A DNA stretch of 64,000 bases, taken from the NCBI GenBank assembly GCA_029207755.1, contig JARCOQ010000017.1:3484945-3548944 (forward strand). The letters run 5' to 3'. This document shows positions 5,820 to 57,554 of the stretch, piece after piece. This DNA comes from Chamaea fasciata (taxonomy: Eukaryota; Chordata; Aves; Passeriformes; Sylviidae). The notes below the pieces were generated by a model. It saw only the letters and a list, made by a program, of their open reading frames with translations. It did not search any database and was not told the DNA's origin. Positions within the stretch are counted from its first letter, which is position 1. The number at the start of each line of letters is the position of its first letter. The position numbers and the translations under genes were made by a program.

Positions 5820-6360
5820 ACGTGGGTGTTGCTGCCCCGGCCCCCGAAGGCCGGAACTCTGTCGTCGCGGCCGCGGTGCCGGGCGGAGCGGCGCGGGCGG
5901 GCGGCCGGAAGGCGGCGGGCGCTGCACCACGCGGAAGTGCCGGTCGGGCCGGGGCGATGGCGGCGCCCGGCGGCCGCGGGGGCCCGGGCTGGGGGGTCCC
6001 GGTCCCGCCCAGGGGCGGCCCGGCCCCGGCCCTCTGAGGGCTCCCGCTCTCGGCCCTCTGACGGGTCTCCGCCCCGACCCTCTGAGGGGCGGCCGCCGCG
6101 GGCCCCGCGCTGGGCTGGGGCCCGGCGGGGCGGGGGGCCATGGCCACCCGGCGTCTCACGGACGCGTTCTTGTTGTTGCGGAACAACGCGGTGCAGAGCC
6201 GGCAGCTGCTGGCCGAGCAAGTGAGTAGTTTCGGCTCCTCCAGCCCTCTGAATTCACGTAGCATGGCTGCTGCGGTGAGTCTCCTCCCTTCATCCTTCTG
6301 TTCTCGCCGCGCCCCGGGCGGCCCCGCCTGCCCCGGCCTCACCGCCCCGCGTCCCCTTCC
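5820..6360 (+). promoter_or_regulatory. STX16: CpG-island promoter of STX16
   Basis: The composition switches abruptly to GC-rich, CpG-dense sequence at about 5820 and returns to ordinary composition after about 6360. Within it are an ETS/GABP-type motif (cggaagtg, 5932-5939) and a YY1-type motif (gatggcggc, 5956-5964), both common at TATA-less housekeeping promoters. No TATA box is seen. The transcription start should lie between these motifs and the ATG at 6140, but it cannot be placed exactly from sequence. Confidence 0.8.
6140..6220 (+). CDS. STX16: STX16 coding exon 1, short form
   Basis: Encodes residues 1-27, from ATG (6140) to the last Gln of LLAEQ, with donor gtgagt at 6221 and phase 0. 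It carries the N-peptide that docks on VPS45. Using a second donor 54 nt downstream (6275, gtgagt) adds 18 residues, [18 protein letters not shown]. These resemble the optional insert of the longer human isoforms. Confidence 0.95.
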
Positions 6361-12300: not shown

Positions 12301-14629
12301 GTTAAATAGTAAGCCTCAGTTAAAATTTAAATATTGTGATTTATGTCATTTACTACCCAGATTTTCTTTTTTATCCTTTTCTGTCTGATGCTTCAGACCT
12401 TACCCTGATTATAGTGTCCTTAAATATCATGCTTAAATATAGTTTGTCTTTTACAGGTATGAAAAATAGAGAAGAAAGGTCCAAACACTTCTTTGACACC
12501 TCAGTCCCACTGATGGATGATGGAGAGGATGATACACTTTATGATAGAGTAAGTTAAGATGTTATCACACAAATTCAATATGAATTGCATTTTCTCTTCT
12601 CAGATTATAAATATCTGTCCGAGTTATGAAATCTTGTTATCCTTTTAGTTATTTCTAATATTTTCATGCTGTTGATATTACCTCAACATGTAAATCTTGT
12701 ATTTCAACAGGGTTTTACAGATGACCAGCTGGCATTGGTGGAGCAAAACACGCTGATGGTGGAAGAGAGGGAACGAGAAATCCGTCAGATTGTGCAGTCA
12801 ATCTCTGATCTCAACGAAATATTTAGGGACCTGGGAGCAATGATAGTAGAACAGGTACATCGACAGCACAGTGTTAGTGAGAAATGGGAACAATCCATGT
12901 AGTGTTAAGGCTTCCAGACTCACTTTTTCCTAATTTACTTCTTCATGCTCAGATTTCCTGTGCTTGAAATATGCCACAGGTTGAGTTAAGGAAAATAAGT
13001 GAATAATAATTCAACTAGTAGTGTGTGTTCAACTTTAAAAAAAAAAACCCAAAAACATCAAAAGCCAAGGTTTTCTTGGTTATTTCTCCCAGAGATTCAG
13101 TTTATGGTAAATGTGTCAGCCAAGAGCACCTGGTCTGGAATCAAGATGATTTTTAGGGATGTGATGTGAGATGGTGACAGAGCTGCTATTAGGAGCTGAG
13201 CAAGGAAGTTGTTTATTAAAGTCCCAACTAGTTCTGTAAAAGTTCATTGTTTACATAGTTCATGAGCTGTTTGCTGTGAGTGTTGTTAATTACTCTGCTG
13301 CTTATGATAACATTTGCTTTATGAAGTTCATTTAGGTTCAATTTGGTGCTTGTTTTCTCCATTTTATTTAGGGAACAGTTCTAGATAGAATTGACTATAA
13401 TATTGAACAGTCATGTATGAAAACTGAAGAGGGTCTAAAACAACTGCATAAGGTAAGCTGATGGAATACTTAAGCCATTTTGCATATCTAATAAGCTTTT
13501 ATAATTAAATAGCTATTAAGTTAGTTTTCAATTAAACATTGTCCCTTTTAGAAATTCCTTCTGTACAGTATGAAATGTCCAGCTGTACCGCAGGAGGAAC
13601 TTTCCATATAACTTCTGGTAATGTCATGCTTGATGCCTCGAGTTAATTTCTTAAATGACTTTCTGGGCATCCAACCAATGTGCTTTGATATTTATATTGC
13701 TGACCCGGTGGGACCTGTCTGCAATTCCTTCCCTGTTTGAAAAGCCAGGCACTTGGGAATAGGGCTGGTTATTGGGTCCCTCACTGCAGATTCTAATTTG
13801 GAAACATTATCTCAATCACATGAGCAGAAAGAATGGTTATTGATGTTTTCTCTTACCATCAGACACTTGTTAGATGGCAGGTCCAGCCTCTTGCTTTAAT
13901 GTGAAGCTTTTGCTGTAAACACCTGAAAAGTTTTAAAAGCATTGATCTCAGCAGATCAGAGTTTTGTGGTCTTTTTGTTTTGGTTTTATTTTGAAGGCTT
14001 ATTAATTAAAAGCAAAAGACAGGCTTTGTTTTGTTTAGCTTCTATTAGTAGACTTTCATTTGGCTTTTGGAGAGTTTTCTCTGTCTTGTGTCCTCTTAAT
14101 TCCCCTGGGAAAAGGAGGAGAGGGATGAGAAAATATAGTTAGAAGAAAGAAGAAATTAAGCAGAAAACTTGAGAACCGACTCAAAAATAAAACTTTCAGT
14201 TCTAATTGAAAAGAAATGAAAATGCACAGCTGACCAGGTACAACAAATGTGCCTGTTAAAAAAGGAAGTTTGTTGTGAATTGTGATGTCCTTCAAATATG
14301 ATACAGGAATCTTATCTCAGCAAACTGAGCCTTTTAACAGGGTTAAAGTGCACATTTGCCTTCTGGCGCAGATCAGAGTTATTGTGTGGGAATTGCCTGC
14401 AATATACATTGTCAGGTTACCAAACAACAACTTGAAATACATGGACTTCACTTACACTAAACGAGAATCTGTACTTCAGCCTTGCAGAAATCTAATTATT
14501 GACTCTCTCCTCTCTGTTTTGTAGGCAGAGCAATATCAAAAGAAGAATCGGAAGATGCTCGTTATTTTAATTTTGTTTGTTATAGTAATTGTCCTTATTG
14601 TTGTTCTTATCGGTGTAAAGTCACACTAG
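6140..14629 (+). CDS. STX16: Syntaxin-16 (Qa-SNARE), 8 coding exons
   Basis: Syntaxin-16 is the trans-Golgi Qa-SNARE, the animal counterpart of yeast Tlg2, that fuses endosome-derived vesicles with the TGN together with VPS45, VTI1A and STX6. Coding exons are 6140-6220 (or -6274), 9601-9708, 10626-10766, 11376-11538, 12457-12548, 12711-12854, 13372-13452 and 14525-14629; every junction is GT-AG and all phases join. The product is 304 aa with the short first exon, equal to the human B isoform as I recall it, or 322 aa with the long one. The N-terminal peptide ([16 protein letters not shown]) is the VPS45-binding motif. An Habc region is followed by a SNARE helix at about 205-270, with zero-layer Gln243 in the context IVEQGTVLDRI. 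A tail-anchor membrane segment spans about 281-301, and the protein ends GVKSH. No break or missing key residue is seen. Transcription is from a CpG-island promoter. Confidence 0.97.
6275..9600. other. STX16: STX16 intron 1
   Basis: 3.3-kb intron, or 3.4 kb with the short donor. I see no nested gene, RNA gene or well-preserved repeat in it. The human long isoform has four extra residues (ELDE) at this junction; they are not directly upstream of exon 2 here, so a separate micro-exon could exist but was not found. Confidence 0.6.
9601..9708 (+). CDS. STX16: STX16 coding exon 2
   Basis: 36 codons ([11 protein letters not shown] ... WVDGADE) after acceptor cccctgcag, phase 0 at both ends, donor gtgagt. 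Nearly identical to human STX16 as remembered. Confidence 0.97.
9709..10625. other. STX16: STX16 intron 2
   Basis: 0.9-kb intron with ordinary AT-leaning sequence. No feature recognised. Confidence 0.6.
10626..10766 (+). CDS. STX16: STX16 coding exon 3
   Basis: 47 codons from [11 protein letters not shown] to TTQEITQ, acceptor ctgttttag, donor gtacag, phase 0. It begins the Habc-type helical region. Confidence 0.97.
10870..10950 (+). repeat. MIR-like SINE relic in STX16 intron 3
   Basis: The stretch with 'gccagaagtcctgggctctg' followed by 'gagtcacttaaacctcctt' matches the MIR consensus order (gccagactgcctggg, ctctgcc, caagtcacttaacctc) as remembered. It is degraded and was not checked by a search. 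Confidence 0.5.
11176..11311. repeat. Perfect 68-bp tandem duplication in STX16 intron 3
   Basis: 11176-11243 and 11244-11311 are identical, each running from cggggcaaattaag to gtggcacttt. The absence of any mismatch suggests a recent duplication, a length polymorphism or an assembly duplication. It ends 64 bp before the exon 4 acceptor, so it may lie near the branch-point region. Confidence 0.95.
11376..11538 (+). CDS. STX16: STX16 coding exon 4
   Basis: 54 codons plus one base ([10 protein letters not shown] ... HAQSDYLK, then the first base of Arg). Acceptor is ttctcag and donor gtaagc; the exon ends in phase 1. The upstream 68-bp tandem duplication (11176-11311) ends only 64 bp before the acceptor. 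Confidence 0.97.
11630..11735 (-). repeat. MIR-like SINE relic in STX16 intron 4
   Basis: 'gaagggttaagtggtgcaca' and the following 'caggactaagtcgaggttag' read like the reverse complement of MIR (ggttaagtgacttgcccaag, acacagctagtaag). The sequence is degraded; the call is from memory of the consensus. Confidence 0.5.
12457..12548 (+). CDS. STX16: STX16 coding exon 5
   Basis: Completes the split Arg codon and encodes [13 protein letters not shown] ... TLYDR, the linker before the SNARE helix. Acceptor ttttacag, donor gtaagt, ends in phase 0. Confidence 0.96.
12711..12854 (+). CDS. STX16: STX16 coding exon 6, first half of SNARE motif
   Basis: 48 codons, [13 protein letters not shown] to GAMIVEQ. 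The final codon, CAG at 12852-12854, is the zero-layer glutamine that defines a Q-SNARE, so the exon boundary falls directly after the ionic layer. Acceptor ttcaacag, donor gtacat. Confidence 0.97.
13372..13452 (+). CDS. STX16: STX16 coding exon 7, second half of SNARE motif
   Basis: 27 codons, [10 protein letters not shown] to GLKQLHK, phase 0 at both ends, acceptor ttatttag, donor gtaagc. Confidence 0.97.
14525..14629 (+). CDS. STX16: STX16 coding exon 8, tail anchor and stop
   Basis: 34 codons and TAG. Starts [11 protein letters not shown], then about 21 hydrophobic Ile/Leu/Val residues forming the C-terminal membrane anchor, and ends GVKSH, leaving only a few lumenal residues as expected for a syntaxin. 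Confidence 0.97.
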   Translation, partial: AEQYQKKNRKMLVILILFVIVIVLIVVLIGVKSH

Positions 14630-18769: not shown

Positions 18770-19340
18770 GCGCAGTATGAGAGCAGACCCTCGGAAAGCC
18801 CCGGCGGCTCAGCGCCGTGCCCGGAGCCTGCCCTGGCCGTGCCCGGCGCTCCCGCGGCACCGGCGCGTCCCCGCCCCGCGGAGCCGGGGCCGGGCCCGGG
18901 GCGGGGCGGCGCGGCCGGGCCGGGCAGGAAGATGGCGAACGTGCAGCTGGAGTTCCAGGCCAGCGCGGGCGAGGCGGACCCGCAGAGCCGCCCGCTGCTC
19001 GTGCTGGGGCAGCTGCACAACCTGCACCGCCTGCCCTGGGCGCAGCTGCGGGGGAAGCTGCAGCCGCGGGTCACCGAGGAGGTGAGGCCGCGCCGCGGGT
19101 CCGCGCCCCCTCAGAGCCCGGCGGGGCCCCCGCGCCGCGTGTCCGCCCGGCCCGGCGGCCTGGCGGTGCGGCCCCGGCCCGCGGGGACTGCGCGGCCCCG
19201 GGCCCGGCCCTGAGCGCCGCCGTGCCCCGGGAACCCCCCGCGCCGAGCCGGGCCGAGCCTGTTGCTGCGGCGGGGCCGCCCGGGCAGCCGCTCCCGCGGC
19301 CCTTGTGCCCACCCGCGGCCGGGGAAAGGCGCTTCGCCCT
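18770..19340 (+). promoter_or_regulatory. NPEPL1: CpG-island promoter of NPEPL1
   Basis: A GC-rich, CpG-dense block surrounds the first coding exon. The start codon itself lies inside a YY1-type element (aagatggcg, 18930-18938), an arrangement seen at TATA-less promoters. Sp1-type ccccgcccc words lie upstream. Many GC-driven open frames on both strands here are not genes. Confidence 0.78.
18932..19081 (+). CDS. NPEPL1: NPEPL1 coding exon 1
   Basis: 50 codons from ATG ([13 protein letters not shown]) to QPRVTEE, donor gtgagg, phase 0. This start matches the human N-terminus (MANV...FQASAG). Confidence 0.95.
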
Positions 19341-22300
19341 CTCGTAATTGAGCGCCGAGAGCCCCCTCCCCGCCCGCAGGCACTGCGGTGGGAGCCGCGG
19401 ACCTGTTTGTTTAGCGGCGGTGACGGCTTGTGGTAGAACGATCAACGTTTTGCATTGCGGCTTTTAGGTCGCTGGATGTTTGGCAGGGGTTTTTATACGG
19501 GGCTCCCCAGTCTCTTAAGACAATATTTACCCTTCTTGGGTTTATTTGTTTTTAATTAAATGGCTATGTGAAATAATAATTCGGAGCTAGTAAATCAGTC
19601 CTCCTATTTATCACTAGGAAAACTGTGTCAAGTTAAGAAAGCTCTGAACCAGCCTGTGCACTAAACAGTGCGGGTTTAGATTGTAATTCATACGGCTTAA
19701 AGGAGATGCCTGTAATGGAAAGTACGTTTATATTTTCTGGGTAATGAACGGGTTTGTCAAATTTCCTGTTTCTTTTCACTCCAGAGGTTGATCCGCACAG
19801 TTTCTTTGTTTCCAACACCTCAACCCCTTGTCATTAAAAAGTGCCTAAGCACAGCAGGAGCGAGGTGGGAAGGAGAGTCCGGCGCGGCTCTTTGTCTTTA
19901 AATCCTCCGTTTCTCCGCAGATCTGGCAGTCTGCTCTGAGCACTCTGAACCCCAACCCCACGGACAGCTGTCCCCTGTACCTGAACTACGCCACGGTGGC
20001 CGCGCTGCCGTCCCGGGTCAGCCGGCACAACAGCCCGTCCGCCGCGCAGTTCATCACCCGCCTGGTCAGGAACTGCCTGCCGGGGGGCGTCAACAGATGC
20101 ATTCTTGTAAGTGCCTCTTGAAACGCTCCTGGTGAAATGTCTGGCTGAGTGTTTTCTTGGCTTTTCCGGGCTGGAGCTGTCTCCAAGGAGACTGGACGTG
20201 GACAGGTTTGACTGATGTAATTACGCTGACATGAGTGGGTTTGCGCTGACATGTAGGCAAGGCCTGGCTGTAATGCCTCGTGCATGCTCAAGCACATCAG
20301 GAAGAGGAAATTAAGGCGGGATTCGTATGGAACATCTTCAGCCGGGAATGCCCATGCGAAATGAGCCATTAGTGGCGTTTTCCAAACTGGGATTCGGGGT
20401 GTCAGCACATGCGTCAGGAGACTGATGTAGCCTGAGTGGAGGCTGTTATGTCTGTATCACAGAACCCGTGAGAGGTGCCTTGCTTGTGCTGTTCAGTGAG
20501 TTTCAAAAGTCTTGATGCAAATAATGCTCCAGTGTGAGTCCTTTGCAGCACTAGCTCTTGGACTTCTTTGATCATCTTCTATACGAGCCTGGTGAATTTA
20601 TTTGTTTCTGTGGGTTCTCCAGTTAATATCAGATTTGTGGGTTGTTGGAGAAGACTCATACAGTCGGTGTCAGTGACAAAATTTAGTAGTACACTTCACC
20701 TGGGAAATGTATTTGCAAGAGTAATAACTCCACTTAATTTTTACCCTTTGAAAATGTTTAGCTAAAACATCTTTCCATTGGTAATTTCCATAATGAACTT
20801 CAGAAAAATAATCTACCTGTTAACAAACTTTTGGGTTAATATTAGCCACATTCTCATGCAGTCTCTGTCTTCACACTCTCATATAATTTCTGTTTTTGTT
20901 ACATTTGTTTTGAGCACATATTGGTGATTCCTGTGCCTTTTTTAAGCCTGATGTGTAGGCTAACCTGTGTTATTTATTACACAGGTTAGCCTACACTGTT
21001 ACAGGTGTACAGGTGTTATAATTACACTGGTATAATTACAGCAGTCTCCAGCTCCTTTGTGAGGATGAACTAATTCCAGCAGTGTAATTCATTTCCATGT
21101 GGGAAATGAACTGGACCAGTTCACTGGGGCACTTTCACTCTGCCTCTCTGTCCGTGCAAAACACGATGAATGAGCTTGTCCTGACTCAGGGCTCGGTTAT
21201 TTCCCACCACCTCCTTTTTTCCCCCGTTTTCCCCAGTAAAACCCCAGGTAGCAGATCCTTTTAGGTGCATCCTCGCCCCCCTGGTGCTGTGTGACACGTT
21301 TTGCTGCTGTTGCAGATGGTGTGTGAGCGCTCCGAAGTCTTTGCCTCGGCCTGTGCCCTGGCCAGGGCCTTCCCCCTGTTCACACATCGCTCCAGCGCTT
21401 CCAGACGCACGGAGAAGAAAACTGTGACCGTGGAATTCTTCCTGGTTGGCCAAAACAATGGACCCATGGAAGTGGCAACGCTCAAAGTAAGATTTTTGGG
21501 GGGGTTTTCTGCCATGTTTTCCTTCAGTCTGTTGCATGGGCAAGTGCATGTGTCTCAAGCTGCCACTGGAATAGGGGTTGTATAATTACCTTAGCTCAGG
21601 GTTCCTTGAAGTTGACCAGCTCACAGCATCTGGGAGTAGAAATACTGAACATACTGCTGCAGCAGAGTCTGAGGGTGTTACTCAGAATTTAGATTTCAGG
21701 GGTGAGAAACACCAAACAGCACAAAGAAAACGTCTCCTCTCTCACCTGTCTCACAGATGCAAACTCTGGTTTTAGCCATTAATATTGCACTGCCTTTTGT
21801 GGATGGGCTTCTTCACTTTTCTCCTACCCAGGCGGAAGCTCTGTGTGACTGCAGGTGAATATCACAGTGAAGTCACTAAAAGTCTCTTAACAGGGATCAC
21901 ATATGGCCTCTGCTATTTCTGTCTGATATACCTCTTTGGCTGAGTTGTTCTGGCAGAGCTGTGGCCAGAAACAAGACCCTAAGAAACAAAACAGCTTGGA
22001 GATGAGCTGTACATGACAGTGAATTGTGAAATATGTCCAAGTCATCTTTCAATGGCAGAAAATCAAAGGCTGTTTCCCTTGTTTGACTGTTACAGAGAGG
22101 AAGCTCCACATCAGGTAACTGTTGGCATGCCAGGTCATTCCTCTTCAAGATCCCTAAACTTAAAAGCTATTCCAAGTTAATCTGTGAGGGAACTCCCTGT
22201 TCAGTGCTCCAGGCTCTGTGCTTCAGTGCAGATGGATGCTTCCTTAGCTGATCAGTCAGTGAGGTTACAGAAATCCCTTAGAAGTTTTGGCAGTGGATTT

Positions 22301-25300
22301 GACAAAGGATATGGTGTTGCTGCCTTTGAAATCCACAGAATTACAGCTTTAGGGTATTTTTTTTTTTTAGTAACTTTCCCTCTGTGCTTCATCCTTACTC
22401 TGTGAACTGATTTGGCCCCAGAAAATGGTGCCAGCCCAGTTTTCAGCAAAGTGGCAAAGACAGGCGTGCTGAGAGTACAACTCTTGATCACTCCATTTTT
22501 CCATGTCCCAAATCAGAAAAAGCATAGCTGGTGTCAAAAATAGTTCCTTCAGATAGGTAGATTCCAAACCACTTGGGTTATTTTTAACTTAAAAACAAAG
22601 CTGCAATTATTTCTACCTCTCATTTTTCCCCTTGATGTCTATGCCAAAAATATTACTGGCTTCCTCTTAGCTGAGTTTGCGCCCCTTAAATTCAACCAGC
22701 ACCAGACAGCTAATGCAGAGCATGGATGAGGCATGTGGTGGGACTTTTTTATCTAGACCTCTCCCTTGGCGTGCTGTATTTTACACCTACTGCATTGTAC
22801 AGGGTATTTTATGGTGAGGACTAGCAGGGATTGTCAGAGCTTTACAAGGCACTTATTAAAGGCTGCCATTATCCAGGTTCTCTGGAGCACTCTGGAAATA
22901 CAAACACAGGCACAGCTTATTTCTGGAAGTCATGCTGCTCCCCTGGGGCTTGGCCTTGGGGTTGGAGCACCTCCTTTTACCTGCATAGCCCTAGCAGGGA
23001 ATCACTCCACACAGAGCTTGGCTCCTGCGGAGGTCCTTACCCCTTTAGGGACAGTAAAGCAATCAGAAGTAATTGCAGGGAATTGGGCAGCATTCCAAAG
23101 CAAGCCAAGGTTTAGGAGTGTGCTGGGATACAAATGTATGGAATCCTTAGGCTGGTCTGGCCAAGCCAAACTTCAGATCCCTCAGCACAAGTGAGTGTCC
23201 AACACCTCAGATTCCTGTGAAACCCATCTTGACTCACCCTTGTGCTGTGTGTGGTCCTCAGTGTAGCTGTGGCTACTGGAAAGCTTGCACAAAGTTTCCT
23301 TCCCCCAGGTCTTACAGCTTCAAGTTGTTAGTTCATGGGAGTTAAAAGTTGAAGCTTGATGTCTGGTGCCTTCGTGGTCCTTGTTTTGCCAGGAGGATCC
23401 TTCTGCAAGGAAACAGCTCTGGCTGCTTGACCATTTTGATTCTGTCCCCTCTTGCTTAGTTAAGTTTTTTGCTCAGTCAGTCAGGTGAGGGTCAGTCCAT
23501 TTTGCCACAGAAATCGGGAAACCGTGCGTGTTTTACACAAACATGAAGTACTCCAGTTTCCCCATGGGCCTGCCATACAGAGCATCTCACAGCAGTAATC
23601 TTTATTGCCCTCCGCCACTCTGCGTGCCCTGTACAAACTCGGCAGTTTCCCGTGTTGCAGATTACACAATCCCTGCAGGTTTCCAACCCCAGCAGCCCGT
23701 AAGCTCATTGTGACTTCCTGAATTAGCTGCCTCTTATCTTTCTTTCCTCCACCTCACATTGCCTTCTTGGTCTCCCTTTGATAATAGAGAAAGATACTAA
23801 TTTTGCAACAGCAGTTTGCTGGGTAAAGGAATACACAAAATGAAAGCACACAGAAAAATAAGTTGGACCCATACAGAAACTAATGGTTAGCCTGGCTGAC
23901 ACTGTTTAACTGTGCAGTGCCTGTGGTGGTGGCAGTTAAGCATTAACATGCTCCAGAGGCACCCCACAGGAGGTGTTGGCTGCAGAGGGATAAATGCAGA
24001 GCTGTGCCAGGGCCCAGCCCCTTCTCAGGTGTCACTTTGTGTTGGCAGTGCCTGGCCAGTGCCACCGAGGGCGTCCGGCTGGCCGCGCGCATCGTGGACA
24101 CGCCCTGCAACGAGATGAACACCGACAGCTTCCTGGAGGTTGGTGATGCACCTGATCAGGGACAATTGCTCTTTGGGAGCCTGGAGGGCAGTAATCAAAC
24201 CCAAGTGTTGCTGTCTGTCAGTGAAAGCTGTGCCAGCAGCGGGAGGAAAATCAAACCGGGGTGCTCAGGCTCTGCCTTTGGCCTTTCGTGTTTCGTAGAA
24301 CTGTGCAAAGCTGGAAGGAAGGAGGCAGAGTTTGCAGCTTGGAGTAGGGCACTGGGGAGCTGAGAAAGTGAGTTCTTCACTTGGTCATGGCACTGAATCC
24401 TTGTCTTAAACCTGCTGGTGACCAGAGTTACTGAAATTACGGGACGGTTGACATATTTCCAGATGAGCTTTATCATAAAGATCTGGAAAGCTGTTGAGAA
24501 TGAAATTATTCCTGTCCTATTACATCATGATCCAGTAGAGTGAACAGTTGTCCTTTACCTCAGAAGATTTCTTTTACTGGCAGAGCCTAAAGGTCAAATT
24601 TATATTTCATGCCATAGTAAGTCAAGGATGTGTCAGTGGAATTAGGCCATTGGAAAAGCAGCACCACTCCCAAAATTGTGAATGTTTGCATGTGTATGCA
24701 TGCCGAAATCACAAAACCCCCATAACTGGGTACCCATTTGTGTGGAAAGTCACAAATGTGTCCTGATGATTGACTGACAGTGTCCTTTTTTCTGAATTAT
24801 TAAGGAAATCAAAAAGGTTGGCAAGGATCTTGGGATTACTCCTACCATTATCCGAGATGAGGAGCTGAAAGAGAGAGGCTTTGGAGGTACATCTTGTTGA
24901 GTATTCTACTCTTTTCCTGGCAGATGACTGGAATGTTTTGCCATCTCCATTGTAATGTTTCATTTGCACGTTTTTGAAACTTTTTATTGCCCATAGTATT
25001 CCAAGAAAATACCCACAGGGGCTCCTCGTAGTCTTTGTTCCCCACAGGTTCAATTCTCTGTTTTCCAGGTATCTATGGAGTTGGAAAGGCAGCTCTGCAT
25101 CCTCCAGCCCTGGCAGTTCTCAGTCACACTCCAGATGGTGCCACACAGACCATTGCCTGGGTGGGCAAAGGTATTGTGTATGACACTGGAGGACTCAGCA
25201 TCAAGGGAAAGGTACAGAAGCACTTGTTCTGCTGCTGCCTTTGCTTACTCTCCTGTTTTCTGATGAAAGCAGTTCAGATAATGTCTGTAAGAAACAAAAG

Positions 25301-28300
25301 TACCTTTTTATTGAGTTAAATGCTTGATCTTTTGTCATCCGTAAGGGCACAAACTATCAGGGGAGAAGACCAAATGGGATCCAAGGACCACTACACAACA
25401 GCTCAATAGCAACATGATAATTTGCCCTGTAAATATTGCCTGCTGAAAGGCAGAAAGAAGAACAAAGATGTTTAATTTCTGGTTTCAAAGACAGAACCAG
25501 AACCCACTGCAGTTGGCCTCAGTGTGAAGCTTATAAACAACGTTTTTCGTTTTACCTTCCTAACAGTTTAGCAGCCCAGGTTTAATATTTTTCAGTTTCA
25601 AGACCAGATCCACCAATAAACAGAGGCTCATGTTCCTTGTCTGTGTTGTTGACAGCTGAGCACTGTCAAAACCACTCTCAGAAGCATCAGAAACACTGGC
25701 TGGTTCTAGCTGGCATTACTGTGAAATTCTCTTTCAAAGACAAAAAAAAAAAAAAAATTTCTATGGTTCTGTTTAAACAGACTACTATGCCTGGAATGAA
25801 ACGAGACTGTGGTGGAGCAGCTGCTATTTTGGGTGCCTTCAAAGCCACTGTAAAGCAAGTAAGTAAAATGTGTTAATTGATATCGTGTATCCCAGCACTG
25901 CCAAGGAGCTTGGATATATTCCCAGAGGCAGAAGCCTGTCTAATCCTGAAGTTCTGACCTGCCTCTGCTCTTAGTGAGCTTGAGCCACTCTGCTCTTTCT
26001 CCTATTCCAGGAAAATATTTCACATCTCTACTGGGATCTTGAGAATTGTGAGAAATTCCTTGAGTGCTGACTTTTTTTTTTTTTTTTTAAGGATCTTCCT
26101 TGAATTTCAGAGTTTGTTCTGTGGACTGAGTGGTTTCTAGTTCCTTGAATCAGGTCTATACTTGAGTTATCCAGTGCTGATTTTGTTTAAGCTGTGGGAT
26201 TTGGGGCAGCTGTTGTCACCTTAGCAAAGAAGGGGATGAGTGACTCTGGGATATGAAGTCTTTCTGTATTCCAAATCCTGTGCCAGGTCTAATATTAACC
26301 TGGTGGGGAAATAGCAGCTCTAGTGTCATCAGGAGCTGCTTGTTGGTTTGCTTCTGTGGTCAGAAAGTAGTGGGGGAGCTGAGAAGAAGCCAGGTATTGA
26401 AATACGAAGAATTCCAAATATTCCTATTGCACTTTAACTATGCAAACTGGGGAAAGGTGGCTGCTGCCAGTAAAACGCTGCCCTCTCCACAAATCCAGTG
26501 ACTGAGTCTTGCTGACAGAGCAGCTATTGCCTCCAAGGAGTATCTAAAGTTCAAAAAATATTTACTGCTGCAGATTAATGCATAGATCTGATGGATGCTT
26601 TGTCCAGGGGCTGATCAGTGCCAAACTCCCATTTCTCAATAGTCTAGCTCTGTGCCTTGGCCCTAACAGCATGTTTGATGTGGAAAGATTGTAAACTTCA
26701 CAGTTATCTGCTGAGAATTAAAATTGAAAACAGATTTGTGAGCTGCATCTCAGGCAGAAGAGCTACCTTGCATAACTAAATCCCTCAGAAAGTTTTGTCA
26801 GAGGTCTGCAAGGGACAAGAGCTGGACTGTGCTGCTTTGGGAGACTTTGGGATCACCATGGATGGGGAACATCCTTTCAGTGGTTCGGTCCTTGTTCCCA
26901 GAGTAGTTTCGTGTGTGACTGTCTGCACGGGGAGAAGTTCCATCCACAGCCCCAGTAGATGTGAGCACAAGTGATCTGTCAGTCCAAACACAGTTACTGC
27001 AACCGTGAATAAACTGCCAGAGATGTGTTTGGACAAACTGAGTCTGGAGAAATCTTTATATGCCTTTATGTGTAAAAATGAACGAATGAACTCACTGCTT
27101 AATTTTACAGTCTTGTGTGAGAAGACCTGTAAATCACATCCCTGCAGAAAATGTGTTCAGAGGGGCAGTGGGAAAAATCTGTTGTTACTGTTTCAAGGCT
27201 TTTTTTTTTTTTTTTAAATCCTTCTAAGAATAAAAGAAAGGTGGAAGAGGTTTCAGTGAGCTATGCTTTGTCACAGAGACTGAAGTGGGAAATGTGCGAT
27301 GGATAGAAAGCTCAGTGGGAAGAGGGGCAGAGGTTATTTTCCGTCTTCATAAAATATCTGCCTGCATGCTGCTCAACATTTACACAACACGATTTTAAAA
27401 GGCTTTGGAGGGCAAAATTTAAAAAGTTATTTTTTCCTAGAAAGATGCATTTCCTCCACTGTGAGCTTTCCAACAGAAAGGAGAAGAGAAAAAACATTGA
27501 CTTAAATTTTTGATTTCTTTCTTGTTAACACGATCCTGCATGTTAGCATAGTGAATCCTGCTGTTGAAGAGCTGCAAGGCAGAATGAGGTTCAGAAAAAG
27601 GCAACTGATACTGGAAATAGATTTTCACTTTCTGACAGTAGATTAACAACATGTGTCTCTTGGAGGAGAAGAATCCAGTGCAGTGCAGTGAGACTGTGAA
27701 TAGTTGGGTCATGGAGGGAAGGTCCATCTCCAGCAATGCTGTTTGCCCACCAGCTGGGCTAGAAACTGGAATTCCTTTCTGCCTTCTAAATGCTGCCTGT
27801 TATTTTGAAAGGTTTTGATTGATGCCTTTGCCCTTTAGACTTCGGAATATCAGCTGATTCAGCAAACCCAGATTTCTTCAGCCGCAGACTTTTGTCAAGA
27901 GATTAAGACTGGCCCAGGTTTTCCCCCAGAATTTGATGTTGTTAAGGTTAACTATCCCAGTTAAGGAGGAACAATGTTTTCATTTGTTAAATGCCGCTGA
28001 CTCCCTGTGCGTTCCTAGAATCCCTCCACACAATACAGCTGCTGTATAAATAACAGAATCATCATCCATTTTGAAATACCATCCATAACCACATAAGCAC
28101 TTGACTTTAAAGCAAAATTAAAACATTATGAGATAAACCAGAATAGATGAGGCTAAGGAAAAAACAAAAATCCCAGGTTAAAAATGCTGTGTGCCTCCCA
28201 GCAAAAATGACACATTTTTAAAAACCCAACTAACACCCACCCACCTGTGCAAAAAACCCCACCAGATTTCCTTTGAAAAATGTAGCATTGCTGTCAAGAA

Positions 28301-31300
28301 ATCGTAATCCCTCACTGATTCCAGTCCCAATAAATCAGCTTGATGTGAATCAAAAGCCATTTCTCCCCTCTGGTTGTTACAGGGGTTTAAGGACAATCTT
28401 CATGCTGTTTTTTGTCTGGCTGAGAACGCAGTGGGACCGCGTGCAACGAGACCTGATGACATTCATGTTCTTTACTCTGGAAAGTAAGATTGTATCTATC
28501 CCTTTCCCATAAACAGAACAAATACAATTTTTCTGTTAATCTGAGAGCCGTGCAGATTGTGAAGCTGTCCCTAAATCAGCCTCCCTAAATACTGATAATT
28601 GCATTTCAGACATCCATAGGAATGAGTTTTAAGCGTGCTTAGATTTTCCTGTGGGGTATGTAAATACACATCAAAATACATGTATATCATGAGCTGCACT
28701 TCCCTTAAAGCACTCAGTTTTTGTAGTAGAACCAGTTTTCTGTGTCCATCTGCAGCTGCACCATGTGGCAAAGCAGCAAAGACAGGCCACCAATGGATCA
28801 GAATCTCTTTTAAGGACAGATGTTACTTCTTTGGCAGTAATTTGTAGAATCCCAGCTAGGTTCTGGGACATTAAGATAGATATATATGTATAATGCAATA
28901 AGATGTATTACTTGTTTCTGATAAAAAATGCAGGCTCAACATGCAGAGCCTGCCACGAGGGCAGTGCTGTCATTTCCCTTTTCCTTGTGTGCTCTGTCTG
29001 GGTCACTGGAGCTGGGGAACAGCAGCCCTACAGACTTGCAGAGTCAAATGAGAGAAGCATATGAGGTCTGAGGCTGCTCTCTGAAGGGTTCTAATCCAGA
29101 CAGGTGAGTCCTGATTCCATCCTGGGGCACTCCAGTGTGACATGGCCTCTCTTCCTCCCAGAACTGTGGAAATCAATAACACTGATGCAGAAGGTCGCCT
29201 GATCCTGGCTGATGGAGTCGCTTACGCCTGCAAAGACCTTGGAGCTGATATCATTCTGGACATGGCCACTCTTACTGGAGCTCAGGTACAACATTTTACA
29301 GTTATAACTCAGTTTCTTTTCTGGTCTTTGTGCAGCTTTTTTGCTTTTGCATATTTAAGTTAAAAGGGGTGTTCTGGTGACAGCAGCAGCTGATGTAAGC
29401 GGGCCAGCGCTCCATGTTTGCAATTCAATTTATAATTACTGGAGCTGATTTGTTAGTAGTGATCAGGATTTTCTTGTCCATGAAATGGCATACACAGGGT
29501 GGTACGAGGGTACAAATTTAACACCATTATTTTCTAGCACCTGTTCCTGTTTTATACAAGGTTATGTTGATGAGCAGTGGTGGAAGATGACTTCTTCCTG
29601 ATTTTGTCCTTTACCTCACCAGGGAATTGCTACAGGAAAATACCATGCTGCTGTCCTTACCAATAATGAAGAGTGGGAAAAGGCTTGTGTTAAAGCTGGC
29701 AGGAACTGTGGAGACCTGGTGCATCCTCTGGTGTACTGCCCTGAGCTGCACTTCAGTGAATTTACCTCTGCTGTAGCTGATATGAAGAACTCTGTAGCAG
29801 TAAGATTTATTTTTTCTTACTTACATAAAAATGGGGGTTTTCTAGACAGTGAGCTGGCCTGCTGAAAGCTCTTCATGGGAGCACCTTTTAGAAATGGCCC
29901 ATATTGTCCTTCGGGGTCTTTCACCTGGGGCTCTGCAGGCTCTCAGTTTTAAACAGGATGATCTGCTGCAAAGGTATTTTTGGGCTGCTTGCCTTTTAAA
30001 CATGGCCCTAAATGAATGCTGAATTCCTGGATGGAGACCTTTTGGGAAATCAAGATGGGCATTCCTCAGATCATACATCACCAGCAGAGAAAGTATCTGG
30101 GAGTGCAGAAATCAGGAAACTGAGGATGGAATTGCTGCAGCTGCTTTTGCTGCATTTGAGAGTTGCAGTGTGCAGTGGGGTTCCAAAAGCACTGCAGACA
30201 GGAGTGTGGGCAGGAGAGGAATTGAGCTGGGCCACACTGCTGCTAGGGACTAAGTCAAGGATTTACAGAAAAGTTGGTTTGTAAGATTGTTTTGGGCCAT
30301 TTGTGGAACTGTCTTCCCTCTAGGCAGAATGAACCATTTACATTTTCTTTGCTTGCGAGACCAACTCTTATTTTCGTCGACAAATGAATTTTTATTTACT
30401 CAACAACTCTTTTATTTTTACTGCTCCCACAGGACCGAGACAATACCCCAAGCTCCTGTGCTGGGCTCTTCATTGCCTCTCACATCGGCTTCGACTGGCC
30501 TGGGGTGTGGGTGCACGTCGACATCGCTGCCCCCGTGCATGCTGTGAGTGTTCCTGCCCCTCCCTGGGCACACAGGCTGGGGAAACACACCTGCTGCTGC
30601 CTGCAGCAGCTCTGGGGTTGTGTCCATCCAGTTCAGAGTGACAGAAATAGGTGGGGAAGGCTCCTTTAGAAAAGCACTGACTCGTCTCTCCTGCGAGTTT
30701 CTTGGTTTGGTGGTTTCATCTGTTCGTATTTTTCGTGTTGGTTTGAAAATATTCTAACAGCCACTTTAATCAGTGACATCTTTATCATTGTGAGCATTGA
30801 CAACTTGCCTGGTCTCTGTTCATGGCAATAATCCCAGCCTTCCATTTTCAACCATGTTGTTTTAAGATGATTGACCAGAACTGATCATCCTTCCAAAAAT
30901 ACGTTCCCTCTTGGAGATTTCCTCTCCTCCCTTTGATGGAACTTGTGTATATTCTTTTGTTTTTTTCCTAAAAACCAAGCCAATTCACTCCACTTGCTTC
31001 TTTTTTTTTTTTTTTAACCCCAGTTTATTCAGCTCATATTCCAAATCCATGCTCAGGCCGGGTGGGAGATCCCCTGCCCTGAACGACGCTGGCCTCTCTC
31101 CACCCACAAGTCAGTGGGAGCTCTGTTCTCATGTGTTGGCTTAATCCAGCTGGCACAGATTCCAGTGGCAGCGAGGATTCAGCAGCACAGAGCCGGGCTT
31201 GGCTGTGGCTGCTGACCACCACAGCTCTCGTTGGATGAGCAGCCAAATCAAAACCTCCCCAAATCCTACAAGTGTGAACTGAGCGGTTTTGGTTTGTTCC

Positions 31301-31461
31301 AGGGCGAGCGAGCTACTGGCTATGGCGTGGCTTTGTTGCTGTCCCTGTTTGGAGGGGCCTCTGAAGACCCTTTGCTGAACCTGGTGTCTCCCCTGGGGTG
31401 CAATGGGGACTCTCCCCCTGAAGAGATGGAGAGGGACTCCAAGAGACGGCGCCTGGTTTGA
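18932..31461 (+). CDS. NPEPL1: Probable aminopeptidase NPEPL1 (M17 family), 12 coding exons
   Basis: NPEPL1 is an M17 leucyl-aminopeptidase-like metalloprotease expected to remove N-terminal residues from peptides; its physiological substrate is poorly known. Coding exons: 18932-19081, 19921-20106, 21316-21486, 24049-24138, 24805-24886, 25069-25211, 25781-25858, 28383-28483, 29162-29285, 29623-29799, 30433-30543 and 31303-31461. All junctions are GT-AG and the phases join to 523 aa, the length I recall for human. The N-terminal domain covers about 1-200 and the catalytic domain the rest. Di-zinc and catalytic residues are intact: Lys260, Asp265 and Lys272 ([15 protein letters not shown]), Asp283 (MKRDCGGAA), Asp342, Glu344 and Arg346 (NTDAEGRL). 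Each is offset by ten from bovine LAP numbering. The C-terminus DSKRRRLV is basic and could be a nuclear signal. In human, read-through transcripts from STX16 into NPEPL1 are known. Confidence 0.97.
19921..20106 (+). CDS. NPEPL1: NPEPL1 coding exon 2
   Basis: 62 codons, [13 protein letters not shown] to GGVNRCIL, acceptor tctccgcag, donor gtaagt, phase 0. Confidence 0.97.
20953..20996. repeat. Perfect inverted repeat, 18-bp arms, 8-nt loop
   Basis: Left arm 20953-20970 (gtgtaggctaacctgtgt) and right arm 20979-20996 are exact reverse complements around the spacer tatttatt. AT-rich imperfect palindromes (ataattacactggtataatt) follow to about 21040. It could be the remnant of a DNA-transposon terminus, a fold-back hairpin or a cruciform site; no function is evident. 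Confidence 0.93.
21316..21486 (+). CDS. NPEPL1: NPEPL1 coding exon 3
   Basis: 57 codons, [20 protein letters not shown] to GPMEVATLK, acceptor ttgttgcag, donor gtaaga, phase 0. Confidence 0.97.
24049..24138 (+). CDS. NPEPL1: NPEPL1 coding exon 4
   Basis: 30 codons, [19 protein letters not shown] to NTDSFLE. The RxVDTPxNEM block is the start of the M17 catalytic domain. Acceptor gttggcag, donor gttggt (a weaker donor), phase 0. Confidence 0.96.
24805..24886 (+). CDS. NPEPL1: NPEPL1 coding exon 5
   Basis: [20 protein letters not shown] to the first base of the second Gly of GFGG; acceptor attattaag, donor gtacat, ends in phase 1. Confidence 0.96.
25069..25211 (+). CDS. NPEPL1: NPEPL1 coding exon 6, metal-binding segment
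   Basis: Encodes [15 protein letters not shown] to GGLSIKGK with Lys260, Asp265 and Lys272. Acceptor ttttccag, donor gtacag. An alternative AG 21 nt upstream (25047) would add seven residues in frame. Confidence 0.96.
25781..25858 (+). CDS. NPEPL1: NPEPL1 coding exon 7
   Basis: 26 codons, [20 protein letters not shown] to ATVKQ, with metal ligand Asp283. Acceptor tttaaacag preceded by a 15-A tract, donor gtaagt. Confidence 0.97.
28383..28483 (+). CDS. NPEPL1: NPEPL1 coding exon 8
   Basis: [20 protein letters not shown] to HVLYSG plus two bases of Lys, acceptor gttacag, donor gtaaga, ends in phase 2. Confidence 0.96.
28898..28928 (+). repeat. 31-bp exact repeat, copy 1 (NPEPL1 intron 8)
   Basis: Starts ataagatgtattacttg and ends with six A. 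The same 31 bases occur at 31584-31614 in the NPEPL1 3' UTR, and the flanks differ completely. Confidence 0.9.
29162..29285 (+). CDS. NPEPL1: NPEPL1 coding exon 9, NTDAEGRL signature
   Basis: Completes Lys334 and encodes [18 protein letters not shown] to TLTGAQ. It carries the M17 signature with Asp342, Glu344 and Arg346. Acceptor cctcccag, donor gtacaa. Confidence 0.97.
29623..29799 (+). CDS. NPEPL1: NPEPL1 coding exon 10
   Basis: 59 codons, [18 protein letters not shown] to MKNSVA, acceptor ctcaccag, donor gtaaga, phase 0. Confidence 0.97.
30433..30543 (+). CDS. NPEPL1: NPEPL1 coding exon 11
   Basis: 37 codons, [20 protein letters not shown] to IAAPVHA, acceptor tcccacag, donor gtgagt, phase 0. 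Confidence 0.97.
30544..31302. other. NPEPL1: NPEPL1 intron 11
   Basis: 0.76-kb intron with a T-run at about 31001-31014. Nothing else recognised. Confidence 0.6.
31303..31461 (+). CDS. NPEPL1: NPEPL1 coding exon 12 and stop
   Basis: 52 codons and [21 protein letters not shown] leads to a less conserved acidic stretch and a basic end DSKRRRLV. Confidence 0.96.
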   Translation, partial: GERATGYGVALLLSLFGGASEDPLLNLVSPLGCNGDSPPEEMERDSKRRRLV

Positions 31462-53090: not shown

Positions 53091-53549
53091 TTGCTGTACC
53101 AATTGCAGGAGATTTTGAAAGAGAAATTTGCATCAAGAAGACACCTAACTTGTGAGCAAGCACGGAGAGGAGAAATGGAGATTTCAGTGAAAACCACACA
53201 GGCTATTTGCAGAGGACAGGCTACAGCACAGAGAGCTGGTTGGAAAGCTTCAATTCCAGAGTGCAGGATGTGTGGCCAGGCCCCAGAGAGCATTAGTCAT
53301 CTCATAAGTGAATGCTCAGAGCTGGCCGGAGATGAGTACAAAATACAGCATGACAAAGCTGGCAGTGCTGTGCACAGCCCGTGCTGCCAGGGAAGGGGGT
53401 ACGGCCACAACCTGCACCATCACCCCAGGCCAGGTAAACGGAGACAACTGAGGAGCCGAATGGGAAGTTTGTCAGAAAGCAGATGTGGTGCCTTCAGAGG
53501 AAGTTCATCAGTAACTTCTCCATTGGATGACGGCATTGGCAGAAAATAA
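53091..53549 (+). mobile_element. Degraded retroelement-type reading frame with zinc-knuckle motif
   Basis: An uninterrupted frame of about 150 codons follows a stop at 53088-53090; the first in-frame ATG is 53175. At about 53264-53370 it encodes CRMCGQAPESISHLISECS, then LAGDEYKIQHDK and a VH. This spacing (CxxC, then SHLxxxC, then LAxxEYxxxHDxxxxxVH) is what I remember from the segment downstream of the reverse transcriptase in certain animal non-LTR retroelement proteins. The reverse transcriptase itself is absent, and downstream codons become low-complexity. I infer an old remnant, possibly co-opted because the frame is still open. Family not assigned. It ends about 640 bp before the G-alpha-s XL-type start codon. 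Confidence 0.55.
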
Positions 53550-53993
53550 CAAGAAGTCACTGACTAATGTGTGTGTGGCAGGAAGCGAATTAAAAATGGG
53601 GCATGAAAATGGCACAGGTCTTGGTGTCCCTCTTTCCAGTGGGCTCAGGTGTTGCGTCGAGGAGCTCAGGCGCAGCGTCCAAAGCGGACACGAGCTCTCC
53701 GTGGACCAGGGCTCTCCTTGGCACCACAGCATCCTCACCATGGGATGTCGGCTCAGGTCCCGACCTGGCAAAAGCCGGAGTGAAACGTCAAACCAGCGCC
53801 GGCTCCGGTGGTCTGGGGCGCGGGGAGTGGGAAGCGCCGACCCCCGGCTCTCCCCGCGGGGCAGGAGGAGAGCCCGCCGAGAGCGCTCAGGTCCCCGCCG
53901 GCCCCGGGCACTGCTCGGGGGGAGGGTGCGGGGGCCGCTCCCCCGCAGGGCCGGCGCTGCGGCGGGGGCCGCTTTCCAGAGAATACGGTAAAC

Positions 53994-54167
53994 ATGTCCG
54001 CATCACGTGCGGCCGCTCCCGCCGGCCGCGGCGCGGGACCGGCCGGGAGGGCGGGACGGGACGGGACCCGCGCTCCGCCGGCCCAGCGGGGCCGCTTTAA
54101 GAGGCCGCCGGGCGCCGCCGCCTCGCCCTGCCCGCCCCGGCGGAGAGCGATGCCCGCGGCGCCGTAG
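53994..54167 (+). other. Possible upstream open reading frame (57 codons)
   Basis: ATG at 53994 opens a frame (MSASRAAAPAGRG...) that closes with TAG at 54165-54167, 19 nt before the XL-type start at 54187. A second in-frame ATG at 54150 leaves a five-residue uORF, MPAAP. If transcription starts upstream of 53994, either could limit translation of the main exon. The peptide is low-complexity and likely not a functional protein. Confidence 0.35.
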
Positions 54168-54186
54168 GGCGGGCGGCTCCGGCACC

Positions 54187-54430
54187 ATGGGGCTGTGCTA
54201 CAGCCTGCGCTCCCGCCTGGCCGCCGCGCACCCCTCGGCGCCCTACGGCAGCCGCGGCGAGCCGGACACCCCGGCGGCGGCGGAGCACGGCGACCCGCAG
54301 GTGCGGCACCGGCTGCGGCAGGACCTGGTGGCCAAGGAGCGGGCGGACAAGAAGCGGAGCAAGAGCATCGACAAGACGCTGAAGGCGGAGAAGCGCGAGT
54401 ACAAGCAGACGCACCGGCTGCTGCTGCTGG
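54187..54430 (+). CDS. GNAS: Alternative G-alpha-s first exon, XL-alpha-s-like with GNAL-like N-terminus
   Basis: This is the 5' coding exon of a stimulatory G-protein alpha subunit, which couples receptors to adenylyl cyclase at the inner plasma membrane. It encodes 81 codons plus one base and stops at a gtgagc donor in phase 1 directly after THRLLLLG, the exact exon 1/2 boundary of GNAS and GNAL; the P-loop GAGESGKST would come from exon 2. Residues 1-8 (MGLCYSLR) equal the start of the long GNAL isoform as I remember it, with Gly2 and Cys4 as lipidation candidates. Residues 9-40 are an Ala/Gly/Pro linker. Residues 41-75 form a basic N-terminal helix whose words KKRSKSIDKTLKAEKREY resemble the XL exon of human GNAS (KKRSKLIDKQLQDEK from memory). 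It lacks the several-hundred-residue mammalian XL extension. Synteny (STX16-NPEPL1 upstream, same strand) favours GNAS over GNAL. The rest of the gene lies beyond the window. Confidence 0.85.
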
Positions 54431-54657
54431 GTGAGCGGGGCGGCGCAGCAGCCCGGCGCGGTTCGGCCCGGCCCGGCCCGGCAGGTGCGGGGCCCGAGGC
54501 CGCTGCCGGTGCCCGGGCGGGCGGAGGGGGCGGCGGCCGCGGGGGCACCGGGGCGGGGCGGGCGCGCACGTGGCGGCGGCGCCGGGCGGGGGCTCCGGAG
54601 GCTCGGCGGGGCTGCGGCAGCGCGGGGGAACGGGGCCGGCATGTGCCGTGCCCGCCC

Positions 54658-54687
54658 GGGGCTACCGGGGCTACCGGGGCTACCGGG
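54658..54687. repeat. 9-bp tandem repeat ggggctacc, about 3.3 copies
   Basis: Three perfect copies of ggggctacc plus a partial one within the CpG island, 230 bp after the exon donor. It is a small GC-rich microduplication and may vary in length between individuals. Confidence 0.9.
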
Positions 54688-57554
54688 GCTGGGGGGCGCT
54701 GCGCGCCCGGCCGCGCCCGCCGCTGTGTGCCGTAGGAGCCGGCGGCCGGCCCCGGCCGAGGAGCGGCCGCGCCCCCGTGAAGGTGATGCTCCAGAACGGG
54801 GCCGCGGCCGCCTGTCCGCACGCCGGCCGCTCGCACCGAGCCACGCAGCGGCACTGCGGGGGCTGAGCGGGGGCGGCTGTGCCGTGAGGAGGAAGCCCGA
54901 GCTCTCCGTGTGCGGGAGCGATCTGCCGCGGTCCGCTCCGCCTCCCCGAATGCACAGCGGGGAGATGCAGCCTCCCGGGCGGTGCGGGTCCATCCAGCGC
55001 TGCCCCGTGCACCAGCCCTCGTTCCCTGCGTGGCAGCTCGTCCCTGCCTTGGACTGCGCAGGGCTCACGGGCAGGGATGCTCCTGCGCCGGCATTGCCTT
55101 CCCGAGAGGTGCCCTATGGAAAGGCACTTTAATTATTAAATTATGCGATGTCTGAGCTTGTGTAGGACACAAACCCCGACCCAAACAGGCTTAGAAAGTC
55201 ATGTGTTGGCCTTCAGGTAAGTCGAAGGAGGCTGGAAATGTTTCTCCTCCTCCTCCCCCCGCCAGTGCAATGCAGGTGGAATACAGGAATTACCCTGAGC
55301 ATCCTGGAATAATAGAGAATATTTTCACATGTTCACAAATAATTTAAGCGCCTCTCGCCCTTGGAGCGTGCGTGGTTCTGCAGGACATAAACAGCAAAAT
55401 TTGGCCTTCATCTTATTGGTGTGTGTTTGCAGCCTGTAATAGAGGGGCAGAATTTTAAGGAGCTTTAGGAAACAATACTGGACCTGGTTTTCTGCATCTT
55501 GGTGGTAAAAGCTCCTATTCCAGAAGCAGAGCTTCTTTTGATGTGGCTGCAGCTTTACTGATGCAAGTCTGTTAATAAAGGTGTCCCTCCTTCTCATGGG
55601 AGGGGGGTTGAGCAACACTTGTGGGAAGAGTAAAGCTCATGTGCTGTGACTGTTGGTAAGGAATCACACCTCTACCCAACGTGCATTCCTTTCAAGCACA
55701 CCATACCCGTAGGTGTGTTATCGTTTGGTGTTTGGTTTTAATTTATTTCCAGTTTGTTCTGTAGTGAGCAAGTGCGTGAAGGAGGAGCCGTGAGAACTTC
55801 TCTTCCTTTGTAGATTAAATAAGTCAGAAAAAAACCCCAACAGCAGGGCTACTTTTGATGTTAATCTGCAAGCCGTTAAGTCATAAAGGCTATCTGATAC
55901 AGGCTTCTGTGGGCAGTATTTCAGTTGCCTGGTTTTTAATAAAGAGCTGGGTTTTGCTGCAGTGGCATTGAACACTGAGTGAGTTAAACAACACATCTGA
56001 GTGGTTTAGAGTTGTCTACGGTGAAGCCAACAGAGCTTTCTTTGTCGAAATACCGATTTATAAATCTGATGGATATGAGTCAGTGTTATGCTGGCAGTCG
56101 TTTATTATATTTCAGCCTGGACTTGAATAGCAGGAAGTCACTTTTTGGCCCTCTTGTAAATCTTGGGATGCCTAAGAGACCCATTTCCCTGCTCCTTGCA
56201 CAAGGACTGTCAGTTTTCCAGTTAGCTTCCTTCCCTTGCTGCTTCTCCCCTGCATCCCACTCTCACTGTTGCTTGGAGAATTTTCTGTTTCTAAACTGGA
56301 ATATGAAATTTGGGGTACATTTGGTGATCCTTCATGTAATGTGAGCAGGTATTGCTGCCACAGCTGAGTGCGTCTGTGCTGACATTGCAGAGGGATTGCA
56401 CACACAAATGGGGCAGCAGGGTGATGTTGAATGCAGGGGGCAGGAGCATCCAGCTGGGATTTAAACCTGCAGCTGGGTCTTTCTCTAAGGAATGGAGTCA
56501 GGGTGGGGAGAAAGGGCAGGGCCAGGAATGTCTCCTCACTTGGGCTGAAGCTCAATAGCAAAAGATGCAGTAGATACTTGGAGTTTCTCACTTTTATTCC
56601 CAATTTTTAGGTTGACGTGCTCCCATAGGAGTGCATCACCAACATGGACAGCGAAGGACACCAGGGGTGCCAGCTCCTTCTTTGAGAGTAACGGATTCTA
56701 AATCAAAACTGCTCTGATGTTTCAGCTCTGTCCTATCGCCAAGGCTAATTTTTTTGTATCAAATGGCTGCAGAAGCTCATGCACTTCCAAGGGCCGTGCT
56801 GGGAATGTGGAATGTTCCTTCCTATGGCTGGGCTGTACAGGACACGGGGAGTGCACCAAGTCACTGTGCCTGTGCCGTGGGGTTTGCTGTTGTAGTGTGT
56901 GTGTAACTTACGTGTCTGTTACTCTGAGCATATGTTCCCACGTTGCAGTTCCTTCTTTTGGAAGGACAAGTTCATCATTTTATCTGGGTGCTCAGGGGTG
57001 TGCAGTGTAGTTACTCAGTGGACAGCTTTATGCTGTTAATTGACTTAGACTTCTTGAATAATTTTTCAGTCCTTTGTCATCACCACTGTTGTAGAAGATA
57101 AAATCTCAAGCCCTGGAACTTCTCTTAATTTCAGTAGAGCAAATATCTTGCATCTGCTCTGCTTTGGAGGCAATAATCTGACTTTGTATTTGCAGTGGAG
57201 TAGTGGGAGGTTTTTTGCTTTGTTTTTGTGAAATGCTCAGCCAGGTGTAATCTTACTGGATTTTGTTTAGTGAGCTGTAAGAGTCACAACTTCAAGATTA
57301 CAATCACTGTTGTGTTGGCAGCACAGTGTGAGTTCAGGGATACTCCTGGGAATAGGAGGTGATTTTTCATTGCATGGAGGTTTTTTGGTGTTTTTTTTTT
57401 TTTTTTTTTTGTTGGAGAACAATCCTGGCTCTAAATGTGAAAGTCTTCGTCATAAAACAATTCCACTACCTGTGTGCTCTCTTACTGGTGACAGTAATAT
57501 GGGTTTTCCTCTATCTTTTTATTTTTCTTTTAAAGACTTGAAAGTATGAATCTG

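Follow-up and report, generated by a model that had tools for sequence, protein, structure and literature searches.

We conclude with considerable confidence that positions 54187-54430 of the window, by which we mean the whole stretch of 64,000 nucleotides analyzed here, form the opening exon of a GNAS transcript with a promoter of its own. This exon is the ortholog of the mammalian XL exon and a paralog of the long first exon of GNAL, and its product would be lipid-anchored. The features located in the window are listed in Table 1.

Table 1. Features of the window, with positions, strand and basis of assignment
Feature	Position	Strand	Basis
STX16, 7 exon matches (6 at E <=2.2e-10, last 0.024)	6140..14557	+	human query
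NPEPL1, 12 exon matches, all E <=2e-9	18932..31458	+	human query
CpG island spanning the exon, presumed promoter	53551..55250	.	composition; promoter role inferred
Upstream block, 20 residues when translated, identical in another bird's row P0005	53957..54016	+	
Second upstream block in common with P0005, 13 residues when translated	54087..54125	+	
GNAS XL-type alternative first coding exon	54187..54430	+	sequence and relatives
Splice donor GTGAGC, intact	54431..54436	+	sequence

An intact exon downstream of STX16 and NPEPL1

The exon comprises 244 bases, corresponding to 81 codons and the first base of a split glycine codon, and its translation, MGLCYSLR...THRLLLL, reads in full (81 residues) MGLCYSLRSRLAAAHPSAPYGSRGEPDTPAAAEHGDPQVRHRLRQDLVAKERADKKRSKSIDKTLKAEKREYKQTHRLLLL. 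It combines an exon-1-like helix and the THRLLLLG end with a phase-1 donor, and its single ATG, at 54187, lies in a good context (GCACCATGG). The open frame, the start context and the donor confirm that the exon proposed in the first-pass annotation is real, with exact coordinates. That annotation had also claimed the absence of a long XL extension, and this was borne out, since an in-frame stop is present at 53989-53991 and no in-frame ATG occurs between this stop and 54187. We also noted a five-codon upstream open reading frame (54150-54167, plus strand, ATG to TAG), located 19 bases ahead of the start codon of the exon, which could damp translation.

Within the CpG island, positions 53801-55050 showed a GC content of 0.80 and a CpG observed/expected ratio of 0.97. 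The frame of the two upstream blocks relative to the exon differs from that in P0005, and they are therefore conserved as DNA rather than as protein, suggesting that they may represent conserved promoter DNA. A CACGTG box is contained in the block at 53957-54016. An open frame at 53091-53546 (plus strand), which precedes the exon by under 1 kb, showed a weak match to PF13966 (reverse transcriptase zinc-binding domain; E 0.00069, under the curated cut-off), and is probably a retrotransposon relic. Further CpG-rich stretches with no assigned gene were found at 49101-49900, between NPEPL1 and the exon, and at 63351-63650, near the end of the window. Rfam gave no match anywhere in the window.

The exon lies on the same strand as STX16 and NPEPL1 and downstream of both, and STX16-NPEPL1 is the gene order upstream of GNAS in mammals. 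Since these two genes precede it on the same strand, the locus is that of GNAS and not that of GNAL. A Pfam match to Peptidase_M17 at 29115-29360 (E 1.5e-17) confirmed one NPEPL1 exon, while two other NPEPL1 pieces matched no Pfam family. The STX16 query gave an extra minus-strand match in the CpG island (55093-54974, E 0.020), and the NPEPL1 query another such match at 2076-1987 (E 0.98), both of which were taken as chance. Two repeats were observed around STX16, namely, a 36-base minisatellite of about 12 copies (5366-5812), less than 800 bases upstream of the start-exon match at 6140, and a perfect two-copy 68-base tandem repeat inside the gene (11176-11313), 44 bases before the exon match at 11358. 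The sole significant exon-1-like match in the window was the exon at 54187-54430 itself (E 1e-6), and the remainder of a bird GNAS protein, searched against the window, gave a best E of 1.2. The canonical GNAS exon 1 and exons 2 onward presumably lie beyond position 64000.

Relatives of the exon and their shared head and helix

A protein search with the exon alone gave 104 proteins at E <=0.01 among 308 candidates, and a shark-seeded search gave 33 of 397 candidates under E 0.1. The exon-only search found Gs-named relatives in birds, turtles, frogs, ray-finned fishes and the shark Carcharodon, and anole Gs relatives were gained through the shark-seeded search. The shark GNAS exon was matched across the whole exon at E 9.3e-13. 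The closest named protein, from Catharus ustulatus, matched at 99% over the exon and identical sequences occurred in two unnamed rows, which points to a songbird as the probable source of the window. Relatives named G-olf came from birds, reptiles, amphibians, a lungfish and ray-finned fishes, with no shark G-olf among the relatives retrieved. All named rows passing the shark-seeded search, in which retrieval needs shared 5-residue words, were from jawed vertebrates, with no exon from lamprey or invertebrates. No mammalian XL protein was among the 43 of 337 candidates at E <=10 in a long-length search, and a scan of viral contigs with the exon gave no relative.

Among 138 protein rows, the head was of the GNAS type in 49, of the GNAL type in 86 and of neither type in three. 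A GNAS body follows in 29 of the 49 GNAS-type-head rows and a GNAL body in 0; 70 of the 86 GNAL-type-head rows run into a GNAL body. The other GNAS-type-head rows comprise 18 that read on otherwise (two annotated fish models and 16 unnamed rows, the latter apparently running into intron), one with an unclassed body, and the window exon. In all 15 bird-like unnamed rows with this type of head, the reading extends beyond the donor into what resembles intron. The head is absent from three models named Gs (P0059, P0065 and P0073), which start elsewhere, and the full-length named bird proteins are probably gene models. The frog-like row P0043 joins the head, the exon and a full Gs body (472 residues) on a contig of 1503 bases. 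Since the intron from exon 2 to exon 4 of GNAS spans 43,000-72,000 bases in non-placental lobe-finned vertebrates, according to the available text of PMC5896119, we consider P0043 to be a spliced transcript, and thus evidence for use of the exon that concerns a frog rather than a bird.

Identity counts and a tree were obtained with 32 of the 138 rows (19 GNAS and 13 GNAL), hand-picked for a spread of named species, leaving out unnamed fragments, near copies, the frameshifted-looking Malurus model P0032, and P0059, P0065 and P0073. G2, C4, S6 and R8 of the head were invariant in 19/19 GNAS and 13/13 GNAL exons, and position 7 was L with the exception of one F, although such counts are biased upward because the rows were retrieved by likeness to the window exon. 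This invariance indicates that the head pattern, MGxCxS(L/F)R, is common to both genes. The first-pass annotation had described a short XL-type exon that joins the signatures of two paralogues; the reading as a short alternative first exon of the XL type, belonging to GNAS, stands, while the mixed-paralogue framing is partly wrong, as the head is normal for non-mammalian GNAS. The window exon is thus the ordinary non-mammalian form of the GNAS XL-type exon.

The resemblance of the helix is not due to chance. Across the 28 positions that precede THRLLLLG, the window exon was identical at 15 to the human XL helix and likewise at 15 to a bird GNAL exon, a number reached by 0 of 100000 shuffles in either case, and at eight to canonical exon 1 of both GNAS (699/100000 shuffles) and GNAL (900/100000). 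Over the last 36 residues, the window exon was as close to GNAL exons (22-25 identities) as to human XL (23), as against 16 identities for each canonical exon. Human XL agreed with GNAS XL-type exons at 20-23 of these positions, with GNAL exons at 16-19, and at 18 with canonical GNAS exon 1. The best match of the exon in the PDB was human XL (E 2.6e-5). A tree of the last residues had been suggested in the first-pass annotation as a check; the 36-column tree grouped the 13 GNAL exons (88/97), but it grouped the 19 GNAS exons weakly (45/0) and left human XL unplaced, between the canonical pair and the other exons, as 36 columns are too short. The p-AU values for human XL were 0.678 when grouped with GNAS exons, 0.652 with GNAL exons and 0.427 with canonical GNAS exon 1, none of which was rejected, and the likelihood of human XL with GNAL exons was slightly above that with GNAS exons.

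Alternative readings of the exon

The claimed identity of MGLCYSLR with GNAL was borne out by the GNAL proteins retrieved, as the first eight residues were the same in 13/13 GNAL exons. This agreement would be expected if the window came from GNAL and the exon were simply that gene's long first exon, a reading that has virtually no chance of being correct, as it is ruled out by the synteny with STX16 and NPEPL1 upstream. Moreover, GNAL exons go on with PRLFG and are 131-197 residues long, bird GNAL proteins exist separately, and 0 of the 29 GNAS-head rows joined to a G protein body have that of GNAL. Membership in the GNAL locus would combine that locus with the head MGLCYSLRPRLFG, whereas the window has GNAS synteny and reads MGLCYSLRSRLAAA. 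With the locus settled as that of GNAS, the octamer of the bird exon could still have been copied from GNAL by gene conversion, or have arisen convergently, instead of having been kept unchanged. Position 3, which is L in 13/13 GNAL exons, speaks for such an origin, since in the GNAS exons it is M in 11/19, L in 5/19 (four birds and the turtle Dermochelys, and no others), V and I once each, and T once, in the shark. However, a single residue is concerned, G2, C4, S6 and R8 are invariant in 19/19, and the residues after the head are unlike the PRLFG of GNAL. We therefore regard conversion or convergence as unlikely, albeit with an appreciable chance; in birds, the agreement with GNAL at position 3 may be secondary and the exact octamer partly convergent. 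It is also conceivable that the exon is a decayed remnant, out of use in birds, as no bird transcript was among the rows retrieved. We consider this very improbable, since the window and three other birds, from different orders, have the same last 45 residues while the linker varies, and the frame, start, donor and CpG island are all intact; conservation and intact signals thus disfavor decay.

The mammalian XL exon might have arisen anew, for example as a copy of canonical exon 1, and so not be an ortholog, only its helix resembling the bird exon. Its N-terminal part is indeed different and far longer, in the available text of PMC9294334, human XL shares as many as 18/36 residues with canonical GNAS exon 1, and both its place in the tree and the p-AU of 0.427 for the grouping with canonical GNAS are compatible with such an origin. 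Nevertheless, on a profile built from the 19 non-mammalian GNAS exons, human XL scored 56.2 bits, about 20 bits over canonical exon 1 (GNAS 35.6 and GNAL 33.4 bits; the maximum of 200 shuffles was 29.5 bits), as compared with 35.9 bits on the profile of GNAL exons, indicating that mammalian XL is likely an ortholog. The 15/28 matching core positions, which no shuffle reproduced, argue in the same direction, and the part of PMC5896119 that was available treats XL as one exon in all vertebrate genomes investigated. A new origin of mammalian XL therefore appears improbable, and we prefer the hypothesis of orthology.

Proposed function, age and comparison with known systems

Transcription from the CpG island would yield an mRNA in which this exon is spliced onto exon 2 of GNAS, outside the window. 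The mRNA would encode a Gs alpha some 414 residues long, with an 81-residue N-terminus in place of the canonical MGCLGNS... This N-terminus would consist of a short basic head and a variable linker, followed by a conserved helix through which G beta-gamma would be bound. Myristoylation requires Gly2 and Ser6; in canonical Gs alpha, which carries no myristate, position 6 is Asn. The head MGLCYS fits this rule with its Gly2 and Ser6, and Cys4 could be palmitoylated, so that a dual lipid anchor can be predicted from the motif; acylation of the bird head is a guess of this kind. The variant would be held more firmly at the membrane, and its coupling to receptor and cyclase would be expected to be ordinary. 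The outcome might be similar to that in mammals. As described in the available part of PMC9294334, mammalian XL alpha-s is anchored tightly to the plasma membrane, in part by two palmitoylated cysteines, and directing Gs alpha to the membrane with a Lyn tag suffices for PLC beta-4 activation.

The claim that the common ancestor of GNAS and GNAL already had an XL-type exon was supported by the homology with the GNAL long exon, the GNAS-locus synteny and the presence of GNAS relatives as far as the shark. Since the exon is homologous to the GNAL long exon, it predates the GNAS/GNAL duplication. This age is already in print: the available text of PMC5896119 (2018) reports an upstream XL exon of GNAS in all vertebrate genomes investigated and its apparent absence outside vertebrates, and takes the homologous XL exon of GNAL to suggest existence before the 2R duplications, with caution as to timing. 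The assertion that the exon predates imprinting fits its presence in shark and fishes, going by the sequences retrieved. According to the text available of PMC11438212, koala GNAS CpG islands are unmethylated and mouse Gnas islands differentially methylated, in line with a eutherian imprinting of GNAS. The available parts of PMC2671723 and PMC2042987 hold nothing on the non-mammalian exon. In the open literature, no other paper treating the exon was found among the matches listed (titles and abstracts; XL alpha-s in non-mammals and GNAL forms), and a search with one exact string, MGLCYSLR, did not find the shared lipid-anchor-type head MGxCxS(L/F)R in print.

We tentatively put forward, as a possible history, that the ancestral Gs gene had two anchors before the split, with a canonical palmitoylated form and a MGxCxS(L/F)R form bearing myristate plus palmitate. 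The latter anchor would have been kept in GNAS by sharks, ray-finned fishes, frogs, turtles and birds, and in mammalian GNAS, for which the first-pass annotation likewise proposed a replaced start and an expanded middle, the head anchor would have been lost, with anchoring moved to internal cysteines of the expanded XL domain, the later imprinted product. A common, predicted lipid anchor is a testable addition to the published age. XL alpha-s has mostly been studied as an imprinted mammalian product, and the conserved short non-mammalian form provides a baseline from animals in which no imprinting has been found so far; work on chicken, frog or fish could reveal the role of the alternative Gs alpha at a stage preceding both imprinting and the long XL domain.

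The GNAS XL exon of PMC5896119 resembles the window exon in being an upstream alternative first exon similar to the 3' part of exon 1 and homologous to a GNAL exon, but the available text has 0 occurrences of MGLCYS, myristoyl or palmitoyl, leaving the head and lipid anchoring unmentioned. Canonical GNAS exon 1 shares the THRLLLLG end and the helix register, and differs in having 16/36 identities with the window, the head MGCLGNS and no Ser at position 6. Mammalian XL alpha-s shares the helix KKRSK.IDK...THRLLLL, and its exon follows NPEPL1 in the locus, as does the window exon. The mammalian protein has a long proline-rich, charged N-terminal domain with palmitoylated C287 and C318 (available text of PMC9294334), whereas the window exon encodes 81 residues with one cysteine and, containing no second ATG, has no ALEX-like overlapping start. 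The long first exon of GNAL (G-olf isoform X1) has in common with the window exon the head MGLCYSLR and the end KREYKQTHRLLLLG, but it belongs to another gene, is longer than the sampled GNAS exons (131-197 versus 68-94 residues), and is distinguished by PRLFG after the head and by helix residues of the ARKVSKSIDRALKEQ type.
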